Part shown: one piece after another, positions 343-35,727 of the stretch
Numbering within the stretch: position 1 is the first letter of the stretch
Layout of the letters: each line of letters opens with the position of its first letter
DNA from: Candidatus Dormiibacterota bacterium
GTDB lineage: Bacteria > Acidobacteriota > Polarisedimenticolia > Gp22-AA2
DNA length: 64,000 nt
Direction of reading: 5' to 3'
Assembly: GCA_035635555.1 (NCBI GenBank)
Contig: DASQAT010000039.1
Location: forward strand, 1 to 64,000
Notes under the pieces: model-generated
The model's database searches: none
What the model saw: only the letters and a program-made list of their open reading frames with translations
Told to the model about the DNA's origin: nothing
Translations under genes and position numbers: made by a program

Positions 343-2343
343 ATGAGCCATTACAAATCTGTTCTCGCGGCGGTCCTCGGCCTCGCCCTGGGAGCGCCGC
401 CCTCGCTGGGGGCGGACCAGACGCAGGCGGCCTCGGTCCGCAAGACGGCCGGCGGGGAGGAGATGATCCTGTTCGAGGACCTGCCCTCGATCTTCGGCGC
501 CTCGAAGTACGAGCAGAAGCCGAGCGAGGCCCCCGCGTCGGTCAGCATCATCACGAGCGAGGAGATCCAGAAGTACGGCTATCGCACCCTCTCCGAGATC
601 CTGCGCAGCGTGCGGGGGTTCTTCGCGACCTACGATCGCAACTACAGCTACACCGGAGTGCGCGGCTTCGACCGGCCCGGGGACTACGACACTCGCGTCC
701 TGCTGCTTCTCGACGGGCACCGGATCAACGACAACATCTACGACCAGGCGTCGGTCGGGACCGAGACGATCATCGAGGTCGACGCGATTGAGCGCATCGA
801 GATCATCCGGGGACCGAGCTCCTCCCTTTACGGCACCAACGCCTTCCTGGCGGTCATCAACGTCATCTCCAAGTCCGGGCGCAGCCTGAAGGGGACGGAG
901 ATCGCGGCCACGGGCGGCAGCTTCTCGACCGGCGAGCTGCGCATGTCGTACGGCGGCCGCACCGACAGCGGGGTGGAGACCTTCATCAGCGGCAGCTATG
1001 CCGACAGCGGCGGTCAGAACCTGTTCTATCCCGAGTTCAACAGTCCGGCCACCAACAACGGATGGGCCAGGGGGGCCGACGGCGACAGGTATGCGCGGCT
1101 GTTCGGCAAGATGTCCGTCGGCAACGTCCGCGTGGAAGGGGGCTACTCGTCGCGGGACAAGAAGATTCCCACGGCCTCCTTCGGGACCGATTTCAACGAT
1201 TCCCGGGAGAAGACCCTCGATGAGCGCGGCTTTCTGGATCTGCGCTACGACCGCGAGATCGGTCTGAAGTCGCGCTTCGTGGGCACCGCCTCCTACGACG
1301 GCTACTGGTACAAGGGGAACTATCCCTATTCGGGGGCGGTGTCCAAGGACTACGGCTACGGCCAGTGGTGGACCGTGGAGGCGCAGACCATCACGACGCT
1401 GGCCGACAGGCACAAGGTGATCGGCGGCGTCGAAGCGCGCTACAACGCGCAGCAGGACCAGGGGTACTACGACACCAACCCCTCCTTCGTCTACCTCGAC
1501 GACCGGAGACAGACTTCCTTCTGGGGGGCCTACGTCCAGGACGAATACCGCGTGCGCGACAACCTCATCCTGAACTTCGGGGTGAGGCACGACAACTACG
1601 AGACCTTCGGCGGCACCACCAACCCCCGTCTCGCGGTGATCTGCTCCGTACGCGAGGCGACCACCATGAAGTTCCTGTACGGCCGGGCGTTCCGCGCGCC
1701 CAACGACTACGAGCTGTACTACGACGACGGCGGATTCTCGCAGAAGGCGAATCCGGGCCTGCGGCCGGAGACGATCAACACGTACGAGGCCGTCCTCGAG
1801 CACACCTTCCACAACCGCATGCGGGGCGCCGCCTCCGTGTACCGCTACGGGATCGACAATCTGATCACGGCGATGATCGACCCGTCGGACCTGCTCGAAG
1901 TGTTCAGGAACGTGGACCGGGTCAAGGCCGAGGGCGTGGAGCTCGAGGTCGAAGGGTCCTTCGCCCGCTTTCTCGAGGGGCGCCTCAGCTACGCGCTGCA
2001 GAAGAGCGAGGACCTGACGACGGGCTCGATCCTGACCAATTCGCCGCGGCATCTGGCGAAGGCGAACCTGAGCGTTCCGTTCAAGCACGACAGGCTTCTG
2101 GCGAGTCTGGAGGCGCAGTACACCTCGGCGCGCGAGACCCTCGCCGGCGATTCCGCCGGGGGATTCTCGGTGGTCAACCTGACGCTTCTCAGCCGTAACT
2201 GGAAGAGCGGGCCGGGCGTGTCGTTGAGCGTATTCAACCTGTTCGACAAGAGGTACGGCGATCCCGGCGGGACGGAGCACGTGCAGGACGTGATCCCGCA
2301 GGACGGCCGGAGCGTCCGCGTCCAGATCCGCTACGAGTTCTAG
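343..2343 (+). CDS. TonB-dependent outer-membrane receptor
   Basis: The protein (666 aa) is an outer-membrane gated barrel of the TonB-dependent receptor family, which imports scarce ligands such as metal chelates, cofactors or sugars using energy from TonB-ExbBD. A signal peptide occupies about residues 1-24. The plug domain spans roughly 62-175 and includes the typical PASVSIITSEEI start, VRGF, LLLLDGHRIND and the EIIRGPSSSLYG motif. The remainder is alternating-hydrophobicity barrel strand ending in aromatic Phe (VQIRYEF), as expected for Bam-dependent insertion. The start at ATG 343 is chosen over the upstream GTG at 298 because GGAGG lies 7 bases before it and the signal peptide begins there. 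It heads an operon with a substrate-binding protein 16 bases downstream and a phosphorelay, suggesting that the ligand it takes up is also sensed. The ligand cannot be read from sequence. Confidence 0.93.
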   Translation: MSHYKSVLAAVLGLALGAPPSLGADQTQAASVRKTAGGEEMILFEDLPSIFGASKYEQKPSEAPASVSIITSEEIQKYGYRTLSEILRSVRGFFATYDRNYSYTGVRGFDRPGDYDTRVLLLLDGHRINDNIYDQASVGTETIIEVDAIERIEIIRGPSSSLYGTNAFLAVINVISKSGRSLKGTEIAATGGSFSTGELRMSYGGRTDSGVETFISGSYADSGGQNLFYPEFNSPATNNGWARGADGDRYARLFGKMSVGNVRVEGGYSSRDKKIPTASFGTDFNDSREKTLDERGFLDLRYDREIGLKSRFVGTASYDGYWYKGNYPYSGAVSKDYGYGQWWTVEAQTITTLADRHKVIGGVEARYNAQQDQGYYDTNPSFVYLDDRRQTSFWGAYVQDEYRVRDNLILNFGVRHDNYETFGGTTNPRLAVICSVREATTMKFLYGRAFRAPNDYELYYDDGGFSQKANPGLRPETINTYEAVLEHTFHNRMRGAASVYRYGIDNLITAMIDPSDLLEVFRNVDRVKAEGVELEVEGSFARFLEGRLSYALQKSEDLTTGSILTNSPRHLAKANLSVPFKHDRLLASLEAQYTSARETLAGDSAGGFSVVNLTLLSRNWKSGPGVSLSVFNLFDKRYGDPGGTEHVQDVIPQDGRSVRVQIRYEF

Positions 2344-2359
2344 GAGCGTCGCCGCCTCG

Positions 2360-3310
2360 ATGAAGATCGCTCCTGTGCGTGCGTCCCTGCTGGCGCTGGG
2401 TGCTTTCGGCCTGGCCGTCTCCGCCCCGGCCGGCGCCGCGGCGGTGAAGGAGGACGCGCGTGTCGCGGTCCTCGTCAGCCAGGACGCCCCCCCCTACCAG
2501 GAGGCGCTCGACGGCTTCCGGGACTACCTGGAGCAGCAGGGTGTGCGCCTCGCGATCGACGTTCAGTCGCTGCACGGCGACTCCGCGGCCGCAGCCGCGG
2601 CGCTGCAGCGGTCGCGTCAGGACCGCGCGAGCCTCGTCCTGACCCTCGGATCGCTCGGGACGCAGGCCGCCGTAAGGGACGTGCGCGACCTGCCGATCGT
2701 CGCGGGGCTGGTGCTGAACGCGGACGACGTCGCGAAGACGCCGAACGCCACCGCCGTGGTGCTGGAGTTCCCGGTCGAGACCCAGCTGCGCTACCTGCAG
2801 CGACTCCTCCCCGGCCAGCGCAACGTCGGAGTCCTGTTCAATCCCTCCGAGAACCAGGCGCGCATCGACGCGGCGACGCGCGTGGCGGCGGCCCTGGGGC
2901 TCACGCTGTTCGCGCGCAAGGTCGAGTCCCCCAAGGAGCTGCCGGACGCCCTCGACAGCCTGAACAAGCGGGCCGACGTCCTGTGGGGCGTCGCGGACCA
3001 GATCGTCCTGAACCCTCAGACCGTCAAGCCGATCCTGCTGTTCTCCCTGCGCAACCGGATCCCGTTCGTCGGGCTGTCGGCGACCTGGGTCAAGGCCGGA
3101 GCGCTGTACGCGCTCGACCGCGACTACAAGGACATCGGGCGTCAGTGCGGCGAGCTGGCGCTGAAGATCCTGCAGGGGACGGCGCCTTCGGCGCTGCCGC
3201 CCGTGCCGCCGCGCAAGGTCGTGTACTCGGTGAATCTCAAGACGGCGCGCCTCCTGAAGCTCGACCTCGGCGGACAGGTGCTGCAGGCCGCGCAGACAGT
3301 GATCGAGTGA
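2360..3310 (+). CDS. Periplasmic ABC-type substrate-binding protein (PF04392-like)
   Basis: A 316-aa exported protein with a signal peptide (about residues 1-28, cut near APAGAAA). The mature part resembles the PF04392 family of ABC substrate-binding proteins with a periplasmic-binding-protein type I fold: [16 protein letters not shown] at the start, a [13 protein letters not shown] strand-turn and a FNPSENQAR segment in the second lobe. It lies 16 bases after the TonB receptor and 4 bases before a hybrid histidine kinase. No ABC permease or ATPase gene is adjacent, so it may serve as a ligand-presenting co-sensor for the kinase rather than as a transport component. This last point is inference; proteins of this family are often found beside two-component genes. 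Confidence 0.85.
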
Positions 3311-28784: not shown

Positions 28785-29672
28785 ATGAGTCGTCGTCGGA
28801 GCATCTCATTCGTGTGGGTCGTGTGCGGCGTCGCCTGGCTCGCGGCGGCGCCGCCGGTGCGCGCGCAGGACAAGCCGGCCGGAGGAGCCGGCGCCTGGTC
28901 CGACGCCGCGGAGTTCGGCTACGTCGCGACGGCGGGGAACGCACAATCCACGACCCTCGGATTCAAGAACACGCTGGGACGCAAATGGGAACGTTCGTCC
29001 ATCGAGCTGAAGGCGGGCGGCGTGCGCGCCTCGGCCACGACGACCACGCGCACCGCCGTCGGCCCCGGACCGGCCGGCTTCGTCGTGATCGAGGAGAAGG
29101 ACACGGCCCTGAGCGCCGAGAACTACTTCCTGAACGGACGCTACGATCGGACGATCTCCGGGCGCGCCTTCTGGTTCGGCGGGGGAGGCTGGACCCGGAA
29201 CCGGTTCGCCGGCGTGCAGAACCGCTACGAGGCGGCCGGCGGGATCGGCACCGTCTGGCGGGACACCGACCGCACCAAGTTCCGCACGGACTACGCGCTG
29301 TCGTACACCCGGGAGAACGACGTCATCCAGGCCCCCGGCGTCAAGGACAGCTTCGCCGGCTTGCGGTTCTCGTGGAAATACGAGCACAAGTTCGGCGACA
29401 CGACGACGTTCGGCAACGAGCTCATCATCGACGAGAACCTCGACGACACCTCGGACCTGCGGGGCAACCTGGTGAACTCGGTGGCCGTGTCGACGAGCCG
29501 GCGGCTGGCGCTCAAGGTCAGCCTGCAATCGCTCTACGACCACCAGCCGGCGTTCAAGGAGATCCCTCTCCTCGATGCCCCGCCCCCCGGCGGCGTGAAG
29601 ACCGGCACCGTCCTCGACCAGCTGGACACGCTCGACACGATCTTCACGGCGTCGCTGGTGGTCAGCTTCTGA
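28785..29672 (+). CDS. DUF481 family outer-membrane barrel protein (YdiY-like)
   Basis: A 295-aa exported protein with a signal peptide cut after PPVRAQ. The mature part follows the DUF481 pattern: WSDAAEFGYVATAGNAQSTT at the start, repeated amphipathic strands, FLNGRYDRTISGRAFWF and a terminal Phe (TIFTASLVVSF). Such proteins resemble E. coli YdiY and are inferred to be small outer-membrane barrels of unknown job. GAGGAG lies 8 bases before the ATG. Its 3' end overlaps the converging thiol-redox fusion gene by 11 bases. Confidence 0.83.
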   Translation: MSRRRSISFVWVVCGVAWLAAAPPVRAQDKPAGGAGAWSDAAEFGYVATAGNAQSTTLGFKNTLGRKWERSSIELKAGGVRASATTTTRTAVGPGPAGFVVIEEKDTALSAENYFLNGRYDRTISGRAFWFGGGGWTRNRFAGVQNRYEAAGGIGTVWRDTDRTKFRTDYALSYTRENDVIQAPGVKDSFAGLRFSWKYEHKFGDTTTFGNELIIDENLDDTSDLRGNLVNSVAVSTSRRLALKVSLQSLYDHQPAFKEIPLLDAPPPGGVKTGTVLDQLDTLDTIFTASLVVSF

Positions 29673-32004
29673 GCCGACCGGGAAGCTGCAGGAGGGCGCG
29701 GACCCTCTCCTGGAACGAGGGGTCGTCCCACGGCTGGGCGCCGTAGAACGTCTTCAGCACCTCGCCGTCCCGGGCGACGACGAAGGTGCGCGGCACGGAA
29801 TAGCTGAGGTCCAGGAGATCGGCCAGCCCCCCCTTCGGGGCGCGGTAGCTCGCAAAACCGGGCTCGAGCTTCGAGCCGTACGCCCGGATGCGGTCGCCGG
29901 CCGCCGAGTCCTCGACCGAGACGAGGACCAGTTTCCCGCCCGATCCCTCGAGGGACCGCCGGTACTTCAGGAGACCCGGAAGCTCGCTCTGGCACGGGAC
30001 GCACCAAGTGGCCCACAGGTGGATGAGCGACGGGCGGTCGGTCAGGGACTGCAGCGGCACGCTCGACCCGTCGGGTGCCGTGACCGAGAACGCCGCGCGC
30101 GACGGCACCTGCGGCCCCGCGGGGCGGCACTGGCCGGTCGCGGCCGCGAGTCGGGGAATCGTCGAGTCCAGCGCGGCCGCGAGGTTCGGGTGCGTGTAGT
30201 ACCACGCTTCCAGGATCTGCCCGCCGGGGGACAAAAGGAACGTGGTCGGGGTCGACACGACCCGGTACAGGTCGTCGGCGTAGCCGCTCGAGTCGTCGAG
30301 CACGGGCCAGGTGATGCCGTTCGTCCTGATGTAGGCCTCGGTGATCTTCCGGTGGGAGAACCCGTCCGGGCGGTCGGGCTTGATGAACGACACGGAGACC
30401 ACGTTGACGGCGCCCGGGTGGCTCCTGACGTAGGCGGCGAGCTGCGGGATCTCCTTCTGGCAGTGCTTGCAGGTGGACGACCAGAAGACCAGGAACGTCG
30501 GCCGCCCGTTCGGGGAGCGGCCGGTGAAGGTCACGTCCCGGTGGCTCATCACATCGACGAGGGTGAACTCCGGCGCGCAGCGGCCGATCATCTCGTTCGC
30601 GGGATAGTACGGCGGGACCCCCTTGATCGGCGCCGCCGGCGTTCCCTGCGCGACCCGCTCGATCATCTGCTCCGAGGTCAGCCTCTCGGGCGACATGGTC
30701 ACGAGCTGCGCCAGGCCCTTGATCTTCGTGATCACGAGATGCCCCGCGGCGTCGATCAGCGCCAGGTCCGGGACATCCGTCACGTCGAGCTGCTTCGACA
30801 GGGTGAACCCGTCGTCCATCAGCAGCGGCAGGTCGGTCGGCCGATCGAGCATGCAGAACCTTTCCCACAGCATCTCGGCGCGCTGATCCTCCCGCCTGCC
30901 CGCGACGGCGAACACCTCGTACTTCGGCGCCTTGTCTCGAAGATAGCGTGACAGATCGACCAGGGCCGTCTCGGACACGGCGTACCCCGGCGCCCAGAAC
31001 AGGAGAGCGACCGGCCGGCCCTTGCCGATGCGCGCCTGCAGATCGAACCCCTTCACGTCGACGCCACCCGGATGGCCCTGGATCTGCTTGAGCGGCGCCG
31101 GGAGGACGAATGCGGCGCCGGGTGCCGGCAAGCCGATGGAAACCGGAGTGCCGGCCGCGGCCTCCGGTGCGATGGCGGGGCTCGCCGTGGCGGCGCCCTC
31201 GACCTCGGGGGCCTGCGGCACCACCACCGGCGCCTGGGCCGGCGCAGGAGCCGGCTTCGTCTGGGGCCTGGCGGCTGCCGGGGCGGATGGCCGCTGTGCG
31301 GTCGCGGTCGGCGGGGACTGCTGGACCGGCGTCTCCTCGCTGGCGGGCGGCGCTGCGACGGACGGCTCCGCGGCACGCGTCTGCGCCGTCACTCGCGTCA
31401 GCCCGGCGCGGTAGCCGAGGTCCGCGAGGATCGTGAGGACGAGCAGAGCGCCGAAGGCCGCGGCGCTCCATCTCACCTCGGGCACGAAGCGGCGCAGGTC
31501 GTCGAGCGCATCGCGCAGAAGATGCGCGGGATTGCGCCACGCCGCGAGCCCCGCGAGGATCGGGACACCGGCGTTGATGCAGTACAGCCGGAAGCACCAG
31601 ACGCACAGGAAGCCGATCTTGACCGTCGAGACGTAATAGAGATATCCGGAGTAGACGACGGTCAGGAGTCCGATGGCGAAGACGTAGGAGAGGACACGCG
31701 GCCGCTTCCGCGCCGCGGCCACGAGCCCGAGCAGGAGAAGGTAGGTCGGGATGCCGAGGGCGGAGATCGGGATCCCCGCGATGTCGGAGTAGGCGCTGGT
31801 GTTGACCGCCTCGCAGTTGGTCGTCTCATCCTGCGGGCAGTTGGCGAGCTCGACGGACTCATCGCCGTACAGGGCGTTCTCGTGGAAGCGGGTCAGGTAC
31901 AGGCCGATCGCAGCGCCCGCCATAAGCAGGGCGGCCAGGAGCGCCAGCGGCCAAGCGCGCAGCGGGGCGGCGGGCCGCTCGGAAATCGTGGTCTGTCCAA
32001 TCAT
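29662..32004 (-). CDS. Vitamin K epoxide reductase domain fused to three thioredoxin-like domains
   Basis: A 780-aa membrane protein joining a VKOR-type disulfide generator to thioredoxin folds. VKOR part (about 15-200, four to five helices): loop cysteines Cys56 and Cys64 (ANCPQDETTNCEAVN) and the quinone-reducing pair Cys134/Cys137 (FLCVWCF). A Pro/Ala/Gln linker (205-300) leads to thioredoxin-like domain 1 (about 315-450), which has lost both active-site cysteines (LLFWAPGYAVSE, around 335-345). Domain 2 (about 475-620) keeps CKHC (Cys512, Cys515) and domain 3 (about 635-775) keeps CVPC (Cys668, Cys671); both look TlpA-like. It probably drives periplasmic disulfide chemistry using quinones. 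Start ATG 32004 opens the first helix; longer frames lack coding sense. Divergent from a porin remnant and the selenocysteine thioredoxin-like gene. Confidence 0.87.
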   Translation of the reverse strand: MIGQTTISERPAAPLRAWPLALLAALLMAGAAIGLYLTRFHENALYGDESVELANCPQDETTNCEAVNTSAYSDIAGIPISALGIPTYLLLLGLVAAARKRPRVLSYVFAIGLLTVVYSGYLYYVSTVKIGFLCVWCFRLYCINAGVPILAGLAAWRNPAHLLRDALDDLRRFVPEVRWSAAAFGALLVLTILADLGYRAGLTRVTAQTRAAEPSVAAPPASEETPVQQSPPTATAQRPSAPAAARPQTKPAPAPAQAPVVVPQAPEVEGAATASPAIAPEAAAGTPVSIGLPAPGAAFVLPAPLKQIQGHPGGVDVKGFDLQARIGKGRPVALLFWAPGYAVSETALVDLSRYLRDKAPKYEVFAVAGRREDQRAEMLWERFCMLDRPTDLPLLMDDGFTLSKQLDVTDVPDLALIDAAGHLVITKIKGLAQLVTMSPERLTSEQMIERVAQGTPAAPIKGVPPYYPANEMIGRCAPEFTLVDVMSHRDVTFTGRSPNGRPTFLVFWSSTCKHCQKEIPQLAAYVRSHPGAVNVVSVSFIKPDRPDGFSHRKITEAYIRTNGITWPVLDDSSGYADDLYRVVSTPTTFLLSPGGQILEAWYYTHPNLAAALDSTIPRLAAATGQCRPAGPQVPSRAAFSVTAPDGSSVPLQSLTDRPSLIHLWATWCVPCQSELPGLLKYRRSLEGSGGKLVLVSVEDSAAGDRIRAYGSKLEPGFASYRAPKGGLADLLDLSYSVPRTFVVARDGEVLKTFYGAQPWDDPSFQERVRALLQLPGRLRS

Positions 32005-32079
32005 CGTGACCCCGGGCACGGATGATATCCCCACTTCCCGGTGGAGGCAAAAGTGCAGGCGCGAGGACTTATACTGTGA

Positions 32080-32757
32080 GCATGGAGCGGTCTTCATGCT
32101 GATCCGGAAGTCGTCCTGTGGCGCCCGAACGGCTCCCTGTCGATCCTCTCCAACAACTACTGGGGCAAGGACACGCTCGGCAATCCCGATCGAGCGCGCA
32201 TGCACACCGACGACAGCATCCAGGTCAAGTATTTCGACCGGCCGGGAAGGTTCCTCGACAAGGCCGCGTTCTCGCTCACGATCGACGCCGGTTGTGAGAG
32301 CGGCGGCGGGGTCGCCTGTTCCGGCGGCACCCCAGGAACACCGTCGCAATACTTCATCGGTTACATGGTCTACAACCGCCTCTGGTTCGACCGGGACCGT
32401 GTCGGGCTGACCCTGGGGGGCGGGCAGATTGTGAACCCGGGCCGGTACTTGGTCCTCCTGCCGCCCATCAACGGCGCGACGGCGTCATCGGGGACGCCTT
32501 ATTTCACCGAGAACCCTGGCGATCCGTTCCGCGCCTGGGACGCCTCGATGACGCTCGATTTCATGCCGAAGCAGTTCGTGACTTTCCGGGGGGAATTTGA
32601 TCACCGGGCGGCGAGCGTGCCATACTTCGCCGGACCCGGGGGCGTGACCCCGCCCGGCGGCAATATGGGTCGGGCCGGCTCGTCGGTGCCCGGCTTCACC
32701 CCGGACCTGGTCCGGACCGAAAACCGTATCAACCTGGCCATGCTCGTAAAGTTCTGA
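32080..32757 (+). pseudogene. 5'-truncated BBP2-type porin remnant
   Basis: The frame from just after a TGA at 32077-32079 encodes about 225 residues matching the C-terminal half of putative beta-barrel porin-2 (OmpL-like, PF07642) proteins: GGGQIVNPGRYLVLLPPING, YFTENPGDPFRAWDAS and DFMPKQFVTFRGEFDHR, ending in Phe (LAMLVKF). Family-like sequence begins upstream of the first ATG in frame (32200), at DPEVVLWRPNGSLSILSNNY, and there is no start codon, signal peptide or N-terminal half in front. The gene is therefore broken, its 5' portion replaced by the upstream region of the divergent redox gene. It ends 15 bases before the thioredoxin-like gene, so it may still be transcribed with it. Confidence 0.72.
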
Positions 32758-32772
32758 CGAGAGGAGGACCCC

Positions 32773-33339
32773 ATGAGCGAGATACGCTGGACGAAGGACG
32801 TGGACGCCGTGCTGAAGGAGGCGAAAGCGACGCGGAAGCCGGTTCTCCTGGACTTCAGCGCCGCGCCGATGTGAGGGGGATGCGCTCGGCTGGAAGCCGA
32901 GGTCTATCCGGATCCCCGCGTCGTCAAGGCCGTCTCCGAGAACTTCCTGCCAGTCAAGGTTCACATCAAGGAACAGAAGAAGACCTTCGAGCGATTCAAC
33001 GCCCAGTGGACGCCGACGTTGATCGTGCTCGACCCCGACGGCGTGGAGAGGCACCGCGTCGAAGGATTCCTGCCGGTGGATGATTTCCTGGCGCAGCTGG
33101 AGCTGGGACTGGCCAAGCTCGCGTTCCAGCAGGCGTCGTACGCCGACGCCGAAAAGCGCTTCCGTTCGGTCTGCGAGGGGCACGCCAGGAGCGGCGCCGC
33201 GCCCGAGGCGTGCTACTGGGCCGGCGTTGCCGCCTACAAGGCGAGCAACGACCCGGCGCCGCTGAAGGCGACGGCCCAGAGGCTGCAGAAGGGGTATCCC
33301 GAGAGCGAGTGGGCCCGGAAGGCTTCGGTCTGGCTCTGA
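32773..33339 (+). CDS. Thioredoxin-like protein with in-frame TGA: candidate selenoprotein (UxxC)
   Basis: Read through one TGA (32872-32874), this frame gives 188 residues. GGAGG stands 6 bases before ATG 32773. Residues 1-33 form the first strand and helix of a thioredoxin-like fold (RKPVLLDFSAAPM), residue 34 is the TGA, and residues 35-37 are Gly-Gly-Cys followed by ARLEAEVYPDPRVVKAV, matching families with an xWCxxC(K/R)xLexeVf-type active site. TGA thus replaces the first active-site Cys, giving Sec34-x-x-Cys37. WTPTLIVLDPDG supplies the cis-Pro loop. The tail (about 105-188) is helical and TPR-like (ASYADAEKRFRSVCEG). No signal peptide is seen, so it is probably cytoplasmic. A hairpin follows the TGA. 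The alternative, a nonsense-mutated gene, is less likely because the downstream frame is intact and a second case with the same geometry is in this window. Confidence 0.85.
32885..32901 (+). promoter_or_regulatory. Candidate bacterial SECIS hairpin of the thioredoxin-like gene
   Basis: CTCGGCT (32885-32891) pairs perfectly with AGCCGAG (32895-32901) around a GGA loop; counted as a 6-bp stem the loop is TGGAA. It starts 11 bases after the TGA, inside the coding frame, and the first loop G lies 18 bases after the A of TGA. Bacterial selenocysteine insertion elements lie just 3' of the UGA and carry a loop G recognised by SelB, which this fits. Confidence 0.72.
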
Positions 33340-33417
33340 TCGATCGACCCGAGTAGGCCGTTCAAGGTGGCCCGCACGGGTGACAGCCGTCGCCCGGTGC
33401 TGTACTCTGTGCGGCCC

Positions 33418-35727
33418 ATGAACGGGAGCGCGTCCCCGAGTCTCCAGGCTGTATTCCGCTTCATCGTCGCCCGGCGCTTCTGGATCCTCCTTCTGTACGC
33501 GCTGCTCGTCCCCATGGCCGTTCTCCAGGCGCTGCGGGTCGAGAGCGACAACTCCATCGCCCGGCTGATCGTGGAGAGCGACCCGGACTATCGGAACAAC
33601 CGGGAGTTCCAGCGCCTCTTCCCTGAAGGGGAGCAGGTGATTCTCCTGGTCGAGGCGGCGGATCCGTTCGCGCCCGGGTCACTCGCGAGGGTCGGCACGA
33701 TCGAACGCAGCCTCGGCGCGATCCCGCGCGTCAGCGCGTTCTCGGCCCTGGCGTTCTACGACCGTGTCCATCCCGGATCCCGGGATTCGGCCGGCTGGAC
33801 GGACGAGTTCCGCCGCTTCGCAACCGGCACCGACCTCCTCCGCAAGCAGGGGCTCGTAAGGGACGACTTCCTCGGGATCCTCCTCGACCTGGGGGTTGAT
33901 GGAGCGCGCCAGCGGGACGAAACTCTGGGTGCTATCGACCGCGCCCTCCTGCCCTTTGAATCCGGAGCCCCGGCACCCGGCGGGATCCGCAGGGTCGGCG
34001 GACCGTACGTCGACGCCTACCTGGAAGGGGAGACGGCGCGCGCCAGTCTGAGGTACTTCCCGCTGTTCGGACTGTTCATCGTGGCGATGAACCTCATCCT
34101 CTATCGCTCGGCCAGGACGCTGGCCGCCTTTCTCATGACCCTCGCGGTCAGCGTGGCGCTGACCGTCGGGGCCGGCCGCGCCCTCGGTTTTGTGTTCACC
34201 ATCGTCTCCTCCCTCGTGCCCCTGACGATCCTGGTGACCTGCACGGCGGCGCTGGTCTACATCCAGTCGCGCTTCGCCGAGTGTCCCGAGGGCACGCCGG
34301 TCGACCAGCACCAGGTGTTCGCTCTGGCCGACAAGTTCGTCGCCACGACCGCGTCGATCGTCGCCGCGTCGATCGGCTTCGCGGCTCTGGCCGTATCCGG
34401 CATCCGGCCGATCCGCGAGATGGGGCTGTGGGTCGCCGCGGGGCTTCTGCTCACGTGGATCGTGATCTTCACGCTGTTTCCGGCGCTGCAGAAAATTCTC
34501 GCGACGCCCGTCCTGCGCCGACGCACGACCGCAGGTCGACGGCTCCTTCGACTGATCGATGCGCTGCCGGCATTTTCCTACCGCTGGAGGTGGGTCATGC
34601 TCCCGGTCGCCGCGCTGCTGATGGTTGCGGGTGTCCTGGCCGTCAGCGGCGTCCCCGGCCTCGTGCGGCCTCTGCACCTCGAGACCGACGCCCTCGCTTA
34701 TATCGATCCGGATCTGCCGCTGTACAAGGACACGCGCCGCTTCGAGCAGGCGATCTCCGGGCTGTCCCAGATCCAGGTCTGGATCACGACGACCGACGGG
34801 GGCATCGTCCGCCCCGACGTCCTGCGCGGCCTCGACCTGTTCGCGCGCGCCCTGGAGCAGGACCGGCGCGTCGGCTCGGTGACCGGGCCCACGACTCTCC
34901 TGCGTGTCCTCCGCTACGTGTCGGGCCAGGGGGATCGCCTGCCCGATGACCCCGCCGCCTGGCCCGCGCTCGCGGCCCGCCTCGAACAACTCCTCCTGCA
35001 GGAGCCGGGGGCGCGCGCCTTCGTCGACGTCGGCACGCTGGGCAGCGCGCGACTCTCGATGGTGTACCGCGGAAGCGATTTCAAAGGCGTGGAGGACCTG
35101 AAGCGGTTCGTGCAGCGCGCCTGGGAGGCCGCGGCGTCGGGGAACGCGGCGCTGCGCGACTGCCGCCTCCGGGTCGTGGGCCAGGGGCTGCTGCAGGCGA
35201 AGATCGGCGAGTACCTCGTCCCCACGCTGACCGAGAGCTTCGGCCTCACCGTGGCGATCATCTTCGTCGCCTTCCTCGTGGTCTTCCGCAGCGGAGCGGC
35301 CCGGGTCCTGGCGATGATTCCGTCGCTGTTCGCGATCCTGGTGATGTTCCTGGTCATGCGCCTGACCTCCATACCGCTCAACGTGGCGACGATTCTGATC
35401 GCCTCGACCGTCCTGGGCGCGTCGGAAAACGATCAGATCCACTTCTTCTATCACTTCCAGGCGTCGCGCGGCGGCGCGAGCACCGAGCAGGCCCTGCGCA
35501 ACGCCCTGCTCATCGCCGGGCGCGCCATCCTGTTCGCGACGCTCATCAACGCCGTCGGGTTCCTGGCCCTGGCGCTCTCCGGTCTCCCGCCGATGCGCCA
35601 GTTCGGCATCGTCTCCGCGAGCGCCTTCGTCCTGTCGATGCTGGCCAGCCTGACCGTTCTGCCGTCGGCCCTCTGGCTGGTCTATCGCGACAGACCGGAT
35701 GGTTTTTCGGCGACGATCAGGAGGTAG
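33418..35727 (+). CDS. MMPL/RND-type exporter
   Basis: A 769-aa inner-membrane protein of the MMPL branch of RND permeases. Each half has one leading helix (about 17-36 and 395-415), a large periplasmic domain and a bundle of five helices. First-half bundle: FGLFIVAMNLILYRSART, VALTVGAGRALGFVFTIVSS and SIVAASIGFAALAVSGIRPI; second half: VAIIFVAFLVVFRSGAARVL and LNVATILIASTVLGASENDQIHF (split by families as the proton-relay helix), then FATLINAVGFLALALSG. Such proteins export lipids, hopanoids or pigments. ATG 33418 opens the conserved part; an ATG 17 codons earlier adds unrelated residues. It lies 78 bases after the selenoprotein gene with no terminator between. Confidence 0.88.
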   Translation: MNGSASPSLQAVFRFIVARRFWILLLYALLVPMAVLQALRVESDNSIARLIVESDPDYRNNREFQRLFPEGEQVILLVEAADPFAPGSLARVGTIERSLGAIPRVSAFSALAFYDRVHPGSRDSAGWTDEFRRFATGTDLLRKQGLVRDDFLGILLDLGVDGARQRDETLGAIDRALLPFESGAPAPGGIRRVGGPYVDAYLEGETARASLRYFPLFGLFIVAMNLILYRSARTLAAFLMTLAVSVALTVGAGRALGFVFTIVSSLVPLTILVTCTAALVYIQSRFAECPEGTPVDQHQVFALADKFVATTASIVAASIGFAALAVSGIRPIREMGLWVAAGLLLTWIVIFTLFPALQKILATPVLRRRTTAGRRLLRLIDALPAFSYRWRWVMLPVAALLMVAGVLAVSGVPGLVRPLHLETDALAYIDPDLPLYKDTRRFEQAISGLSQIQVWITTTDGGIVRPDVLRGLDLFARALEQDRRVGSVTGPTTLLRVLRYVSGQGDRLPDDPAAWPALAARLEQLLLQEPGARAFVDVGTLGSARLSMVYRGSDFKGVEDLKRFVQRAWEAAASGNAALRDCRLRVVGQGLLQAKIGEYLVPTLTESFGLTVAIIFVAFLVVFRSGAARVLAMIPSLFAILVMFLVMRLTSIPLNVATILIASTVLGASENDQIHFFYHFQASRGGASTEQALRNALLIAGRAILFATLINAVGFLALALSGLPPMRQFGIVSASAFVLSMLASLTVLPSALWLVYRDRPDGFSATIRR

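Follow-up and report, generated by a model that had tools for sequence, protein, structure and literature searches.

We found that the frame at positions 32773 to 33339 (plus strand) of the window, the 64,000-nt stretch of DNA analyzed here, very probably encodes a cytoplasmic thioredoxin-fold selenoprotein. Judging from the sequence, the UGA at its codon 34 would be decoded as selenocysteine (Sec) by tRNA-Sec and SelB, directed by a hairpin within the coding region. This reading, first put forward in an initial annotation of the window, is supported by the conservation of the TGA, by homologs with Cys at the same position, and by a full set of Sec machinery genes in the source genome. We regard its family as genuine selenoproteins, of a kind already known but apparently uncatalogued, in which the register of the SECIS hairpin has changed in an unusual way. 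The finding adds to bacteria common in soil a coherent selenoprotein family that standard gene finding splits wrongly.

The gene (188 residues plus stop) was delineated from the sequence, Pfam matches, alignment, and predicted structure. Its ATG at 32773 is preceded, as the initial annotation had noted, by a good ribosome binding site: AGGAGG lies at positions 32762 to 32767 (plus strand), 5 nt upstream of the start, and the purine-rich stretch ahead of the start is similar in most homologs. From this ATG the frame meets a single TGA, at residue 34 (positions 32872 to 32874, plus strand), and then stays open until the stop codon TGA at 33337 to 33339. The earlier description of the frame as open to 33339 is thus right in that there is no further internal stop, but the coding part ends at 33336. 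The in-frame TGA, which is matched by TGA in 38 homologous genes and by TGC in two full-length ones, stands at the first-Cys position of a CxxC motif and gives UGGC, as had been proposed. The second position of the pair, the resolving Cys37, is encoded by TGC at positions 32881 to 32883 (plus strand) and aligns with Cys, encoded by TGC or TGT, in every homolog among those listed. The ORF list contains only the part from 33019 to 33339 (106 aa, TTG start), which bears out the claim that ORF callers split the gene. When translated through the TGA, the protein has matches above the Pfam cut-offs to Thioredoxin_2 (5.4e-14), Thioredoxin_7 (1.4e-11), Thioredoxin, and Thioredox_DsbH, and the matched stretches span residue 34. 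Matches of the C-terminal part to TPR models of Pfam are weak.

The gene could belong to the PF13098 UxxC "thiol:disulfide interchange protein" subfamily (WP_011366075.1), which has been catalogued before, although we consider this rather unlikely. The two share a Pfam domain and a motif: the best Pfam match of our protein is PF13098 with UxxC, and it is by this domain and this motif that the entry is tabulated in the parts available of two reviews (PMC13188914, PMC9312934). Against membership, those parts give the entry by domain and motif only, so that the comparison is one of descriptions, and they mention neither a TPR-like domain nor a distribution in Acidobacteriota and Gemmatimonadota; moreover, no NCBIfam (r20) model reaches its cut-off for the present family. 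The nearest NCBIfam match is TsoB (NF045694, a rhodanese/DsbD fusion-like selenoprotein), with 59.3 bits over the DsbD-gamma-like domain against a cut-off of 805 bits. In contrast to TsoB and DsbD, the protein lacks membrane and rhodanese parts, and a signal peptide is not visible. DsbD-gamma is its nearest solved chain by sequence. The VPGUxxT thioredoxin-like selenoprotein (NF041383), which likewise carries Sec in a thioredoxin-like protein, gives a partial match over residues 3 to 153, but the score is 48.8 bits against 275, and the motif is UGGC (UxxC) here and UxxT there. One of the 149 relatives of our genome (G021) has a true NF041383 member, and it has a separate member of the present family too.

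We found no thioredoxin-TPR selenoprotein in the parts available of the 2026 review (PMC13188914) and the 2022 review (PMC9312934), and the words TPR, tetratricopeptide, and Acidobacteri are absent from the main text of the former as far as it was available. Similarly, among the open-licence articles listed for selenoproteins of Acidobacteria or Acidobacteriota, none describes this family in its title or the start of its abstract. In the excerpts available, one study gives four selenoproteins in three families for Acidobacteria (PMC1794560), and another gives three known and no new selenoprotein genes for one Acidobacteriota genome (PMC12013277).

The same TGA recurs across 37 genomes of Acidobacteriota and Gemmatimonadota, in a total of 38 distinct homologs, and none of these genes has another stop within the matched frame. 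A search for homologs with Cys or Sec at residue 34, which the initial annotation had suggested, thus returned 38 Sec (TGA) genes and two full-length members with Cys instead, L079 (CKGC) and L119 (PGCKGC). Because the TGA recurs in 38 distinct genes, it is not a read error in place of TGC or TGT, a possibility that had also been raised. In a scan of named genomes, all seven loci (six from Acidobacteria/Thermoanaerobaculia and one from a Gemmatimonas MAG) have TGA at residue 34. Of the 149 relatives of our genome, matches at 1e-10 were obtained in 39, among which 14 (our own genome counted) carry the TGA form. Across the phylum, 63 of 396 genomes matched at 1e-15, and the loci fetched from them added more TGA forms and L079. 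The phylum to which the Gemmatimonas MAG belongs gave matches in 11 of 298 genomes: ten carry TGA, and the remaining one (L119) has Cys in its place. The remaining matches among the loci read are WCxxC-type thioredoxin domains, many of them in longer open frames. Duplicates of one gene (e.g., L029, L031, L060-L066, L069, L071, L075, L076, L080-L083, and L110) were removed before counting, and the count of 38 leaves out a second copy in G472. The locus L058 gave no hit. On the tree, the 38 Sec and two Cys genes are separated from two Cys outgroup rows with support of 100/100, while for a single clade of Sec genes the test decides neither way (p-AU = 0.132). In the viral contigs searched, no relative of the selenoprotein was found.

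These data also bear on whether the TGA is a real stop, in which case the gene would be a pseudogene or a pair of short, separate ORFs. The ORF list, with nothing but the 106-aa ORF past the TGA, fits such a reading, but we reject it as highly improbable: the TGA is conserved in 38 genes of two phyla, none of them interrupted by a further stop, the sequence is family-like on both sides of it, and base changes fall mostly at third codon positions both upstream and downstream.

The genome from which the window comes (4.28 Mb, 59 contigs, 99% complete) has all the machinery whose absence, according to the initial annotation, would speak against Sec: SelA (451 bits), SelB (334 bits, above cut-off), SelD (366 bits), and a tRNA-Sec (75.9 bits) that ARAGORN reports as tRNA-SeC with anticodon TCA. 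SelD has its own in-frame TGA, within RSGGUAAK, so that another gene of this genome, independent of the first, has a Sec codon as well. This selD gene (L017, positions 1393 to 2481, minus strand; contig C46 of G000) encodes a GGUAAK selenoprotein, and ORF callers would break it in two as well; the motif agrees with the UxxK given for Sec-containing SelD in the available part of a review (PMC13188914).

Beyond this genome, SelB scores above cut-off in 110 of the 149 relatives, which suggests that Sec use is common in this phylum. Within these relatives, SelB is present in all 14 genomes with the TGA form, and none of the 39 genomes without SelB has that form (Fisher's test, P = 0.021, kinship ignored). 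In total, SelB is above cut-off in 30 of the 34 Sec-form genomes tested and in neither of the two Cys-form genomes (G325, 99% complete, and G682); L024, L025, and L026 are not part of these counts. Further Sec genomes have SelB in nine of 10 cases, the exception being G256 (950 contigs, 90% complete). The Gemmatimonas MAG has it as well (1/1), as do six of nine other Sec-form genomes of its phylum, the absences being in G398, G472, and G591. The four misses may be gaps in the genomes; they count against a perfect link. The location of the Cys members L079 and L119 in genomes without SelB above cut-off is consistent with an exchange of Sec for Cys upon loss of the machinery.

UGA is reassigned in some bacteria, and codon 34 could be read as another residue (e.g., Trp under a changed code) or passed by unprogrammed read-through. 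We reject a change of code and give this whole class of explanations very little credence, since family genes end mainly in TGA stops, so that UGA does not serve generally as a sense codon; since the aligned residue among the non-TGA homologs listed is Cys and never Trp; and since the genome has SelB and a dedicated tRNA-Sec(TCA).

A candidate for the signal that directs decoding of the UGA as Sec lies under the code a short way past the TGA. The initial annotation had pointed to a perfect 7-bp hairpin 11 bases later, and position 32885 is indeed the 11th base past the TGA. The SECIS-like hairpin (t1; positions 32885 to 32901, plus strand), which we characterized by folds, codon freezing, and pair counts, consists of CTCGGCT, the apical loop GGA, and AGCCGAG, with all 7 bp paired. 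According to the part available of one study (PMC1088965), bacterial SECIS elements are hairpins just downstream of the UGA whose small apical loop contains a G, and the site and loop of t1 agree with this. The 61-nt region folds with -30.3 kcal/mol (z = -2.73; three of 200 shuffles as good). Codons 38 to 43 are frozen: in the first 14 t1 sequences, all 533 pairs of codons for the same amino acid are identical (533/533), compared with a fraction of 0.568 for the gene as a whole and a median of 0.54 among 170 windows of codons. With 19 t1 sequences (L074 and the t2 rows described below left out), 930 of 978 pairs are identical, the highest value among 105 windows. The same codons in 20 Cys homologs, in contrast, give 174 of 349 (0.499), rank 50 of 105. 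This freezing, seen only where Sec appears to be used, is the strongest evidence for a putative RNA signal over the code.

In the second phylum, nine more t1 genes retain six or seven of the seven pairs. Among 18 distinct rows, two of the seven pairs are each broken in three rows, and no compensatory change was found, because the pairs of t1 hardly vary. Covariation being uninformative, the case for pairing in t1 is made by folding energy together with codon freezing; RNA covariation alone is not significant for either t1 or t2. A search of positions 32700 to 33400 against Rfam gave no SECIS family and one sub-threshold match, on the other strand. That the frozen nucleotides serve an overlapping antisense gene (the 232-aa ORF at 32485 to 33183, minus strand) or some other RNA element is scarcely credible, and the antisense gene we reject outright, as its frame has stops in two of five close relatives, the freezing is confined to the hairpin and absent from Cys homologs, and the lone Rfam match is sub-threshold and on the other strand.

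The hairpin is found in three registers within the family, with stems that differ and cannot be superimposed, and with the apical loop at 20 to 22 (t1), 26 to 31 (t2), and 21 to 26 (t3) nt from the U of UGA. The t2 form occurs in eight Sec genes without t1; its stems, like GGATGC/CGTGAC/GTATCC, start 7 nt further on, and L120 resembles it with five of six pairs. Codon freezing in t2 genes peaks at residues 40 to 45, a shift in step with the hairpin. All 48 of 48 cells of the t2 stem pair, while versions slid along the sequence reach at most 62.5%; covariation amounts to one double change, matched by 60 of 500 shuffles. The t3 form is an 8-bp hairpin in L074, whose nearest relatives retain t1, and its nesting among them has support of 99/94 when the hairpin columns are taken out. 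Both t1 (6/7 pairs) and t2 (6/6) can be formed by L070. As a bridge between the two it is suggestive only, because the amino acids (D-A, Y-P) already dictate some of the t2 pairing.

Three registers within one orthologous family suggest that the recoding signal was replaced in place. We put at an even chance the joint reading that the SECIS hairpin was rebuilt where it stands, giving three hairpins for one Sec codon in what is perhaps a selenium-based, chaperedoxin-like Trx-TPR protein, and that t3, at least, arose inside the t1 group. In the full tree t2 lies outside t1; with residues 33 to 47 left out the outgroup moves, and either t1 or t2 may be the older. Grouping t1 and t3 as one clade is neither shown nor rejected (p-AU = 0.291). 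If the hairpin was rebuilt in place, the family is a natural test set for the tolerance of SelB to SECIS position and displays the evolution of a recoding signal under protein constraint. Such a change would also offer a natural series on which rules of UGA recoding can be tested.

The AlphaFold2 model (pLDDT 93) has a thioredoxin-fold domain at about residues 1 to 110 and a TPR-like helical domain at about residues 111 to 188. U34 stands directly ahead of a helix (residues 35 to 44), and a WTPT loop precedes a strand (82 to 86); the helices after the thioredoxin fold span residues 102 to 119, 123 to 136, 143 to 158, 162 to 174, and 179 to 187. W79, T80, P81, and T82 are invariant in eight aligned rows, and Pro81 (positions 33013 to 33015, plus strand) is presumably the cis-proline of the thioredoxin fold. 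The fold, the U34-C37 pair at a helix start, WTPT at 79 to 82, and the Pfam matches above cut-off together identify a thioredoxin-fold oxidoreductase. By predicted structure, the N-terminal part matches DsbD-gamma (1vrs_E; Z = 13.6, 1.8 Å over 107 residues), and the C-terminal part matches the TPR of BamD/YbgF (5efr; Z = 14.4, 1.6 Å over 89 residues). Because helical repeats often give high structure-match scores, the latter match indicates a fold and not a role.

With no hydrophobic signal sequence visible in the protein sequence, the protein is probably cytoplasmic, and it is most likely a UxxC thiol-disulfide oxidoreductase with a predicted binding domain. Compared with Cys, Sec is a nucleophile that is reactive at neutral pH and resists over-oxidation. 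We propose that the UGA at codon 34 would be decoded via tRNA-Sec and SelB, with insertion probably directed, as conservation suggests, by the hairpin 10 nt past it. Sec34 would then be the exposed nucleophile of the UxxC pair and attack a substrate disulfide or another oxidized thiol, and Cys37 would resolve the mixed selenosulfide as in thioredoxins, while the TPR-like domain probably binds a partner or client protein. The architecture of a thioredoxin domain followed by TPR-like helices resembles that of the CnoX/YbbN chaperedoxins, and the top Foldseek rows include Salmonella thioredoxin-like 3qdn and E. coli YbbN (3qou). However, identity to these is about 15% (TM 0.42 to 0.43, rmsd 10 to 11.5 Å), and our protein has a Sec active site and a shorter chain. 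This poor global superposition suggests that the domains are packed differently from those of CnoX/YbbN, and YbbN is not among the best 50 rows of a second structure comparison. By analogy with CnoX, which combines holdase and redox functions (PMC8129009, in the part available), a chaperedoxin-like role of the Trx-TPR selenoprotein is possible. The family implies the use of selenium in a thioredoxin-like pathway in bacteria common in soil.

In the window and 20 compared regions, no gene neighbor is conserved beyond genus or family. A fusion of a VKOR domain with AhpC-TSA/thioredoxin-like domains (positions 29662 to 32010, minus strand) is divergent from the selenoprotein gene; apart from the window, only L089 and L090 have a related gene at this place, and an operon partner can therefore not be deduced from it. 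Between the two genes sits a 185-aa ORF (32200 to 32757, plus strand), with no Pfam match, whose sequence gives the impression of a C-terminal portion of an outer-membrane beta-barrel that lacks the signal part. At this place L089 and L090 show no more than a short gap, and the ORF is perhaps a gene remnant. Directly downstream of the selenoprotein gene lies an MMPL-type exporter (33367 to 35727, plus strand), which among the 20 regions is shared only with L089, of the same genus.
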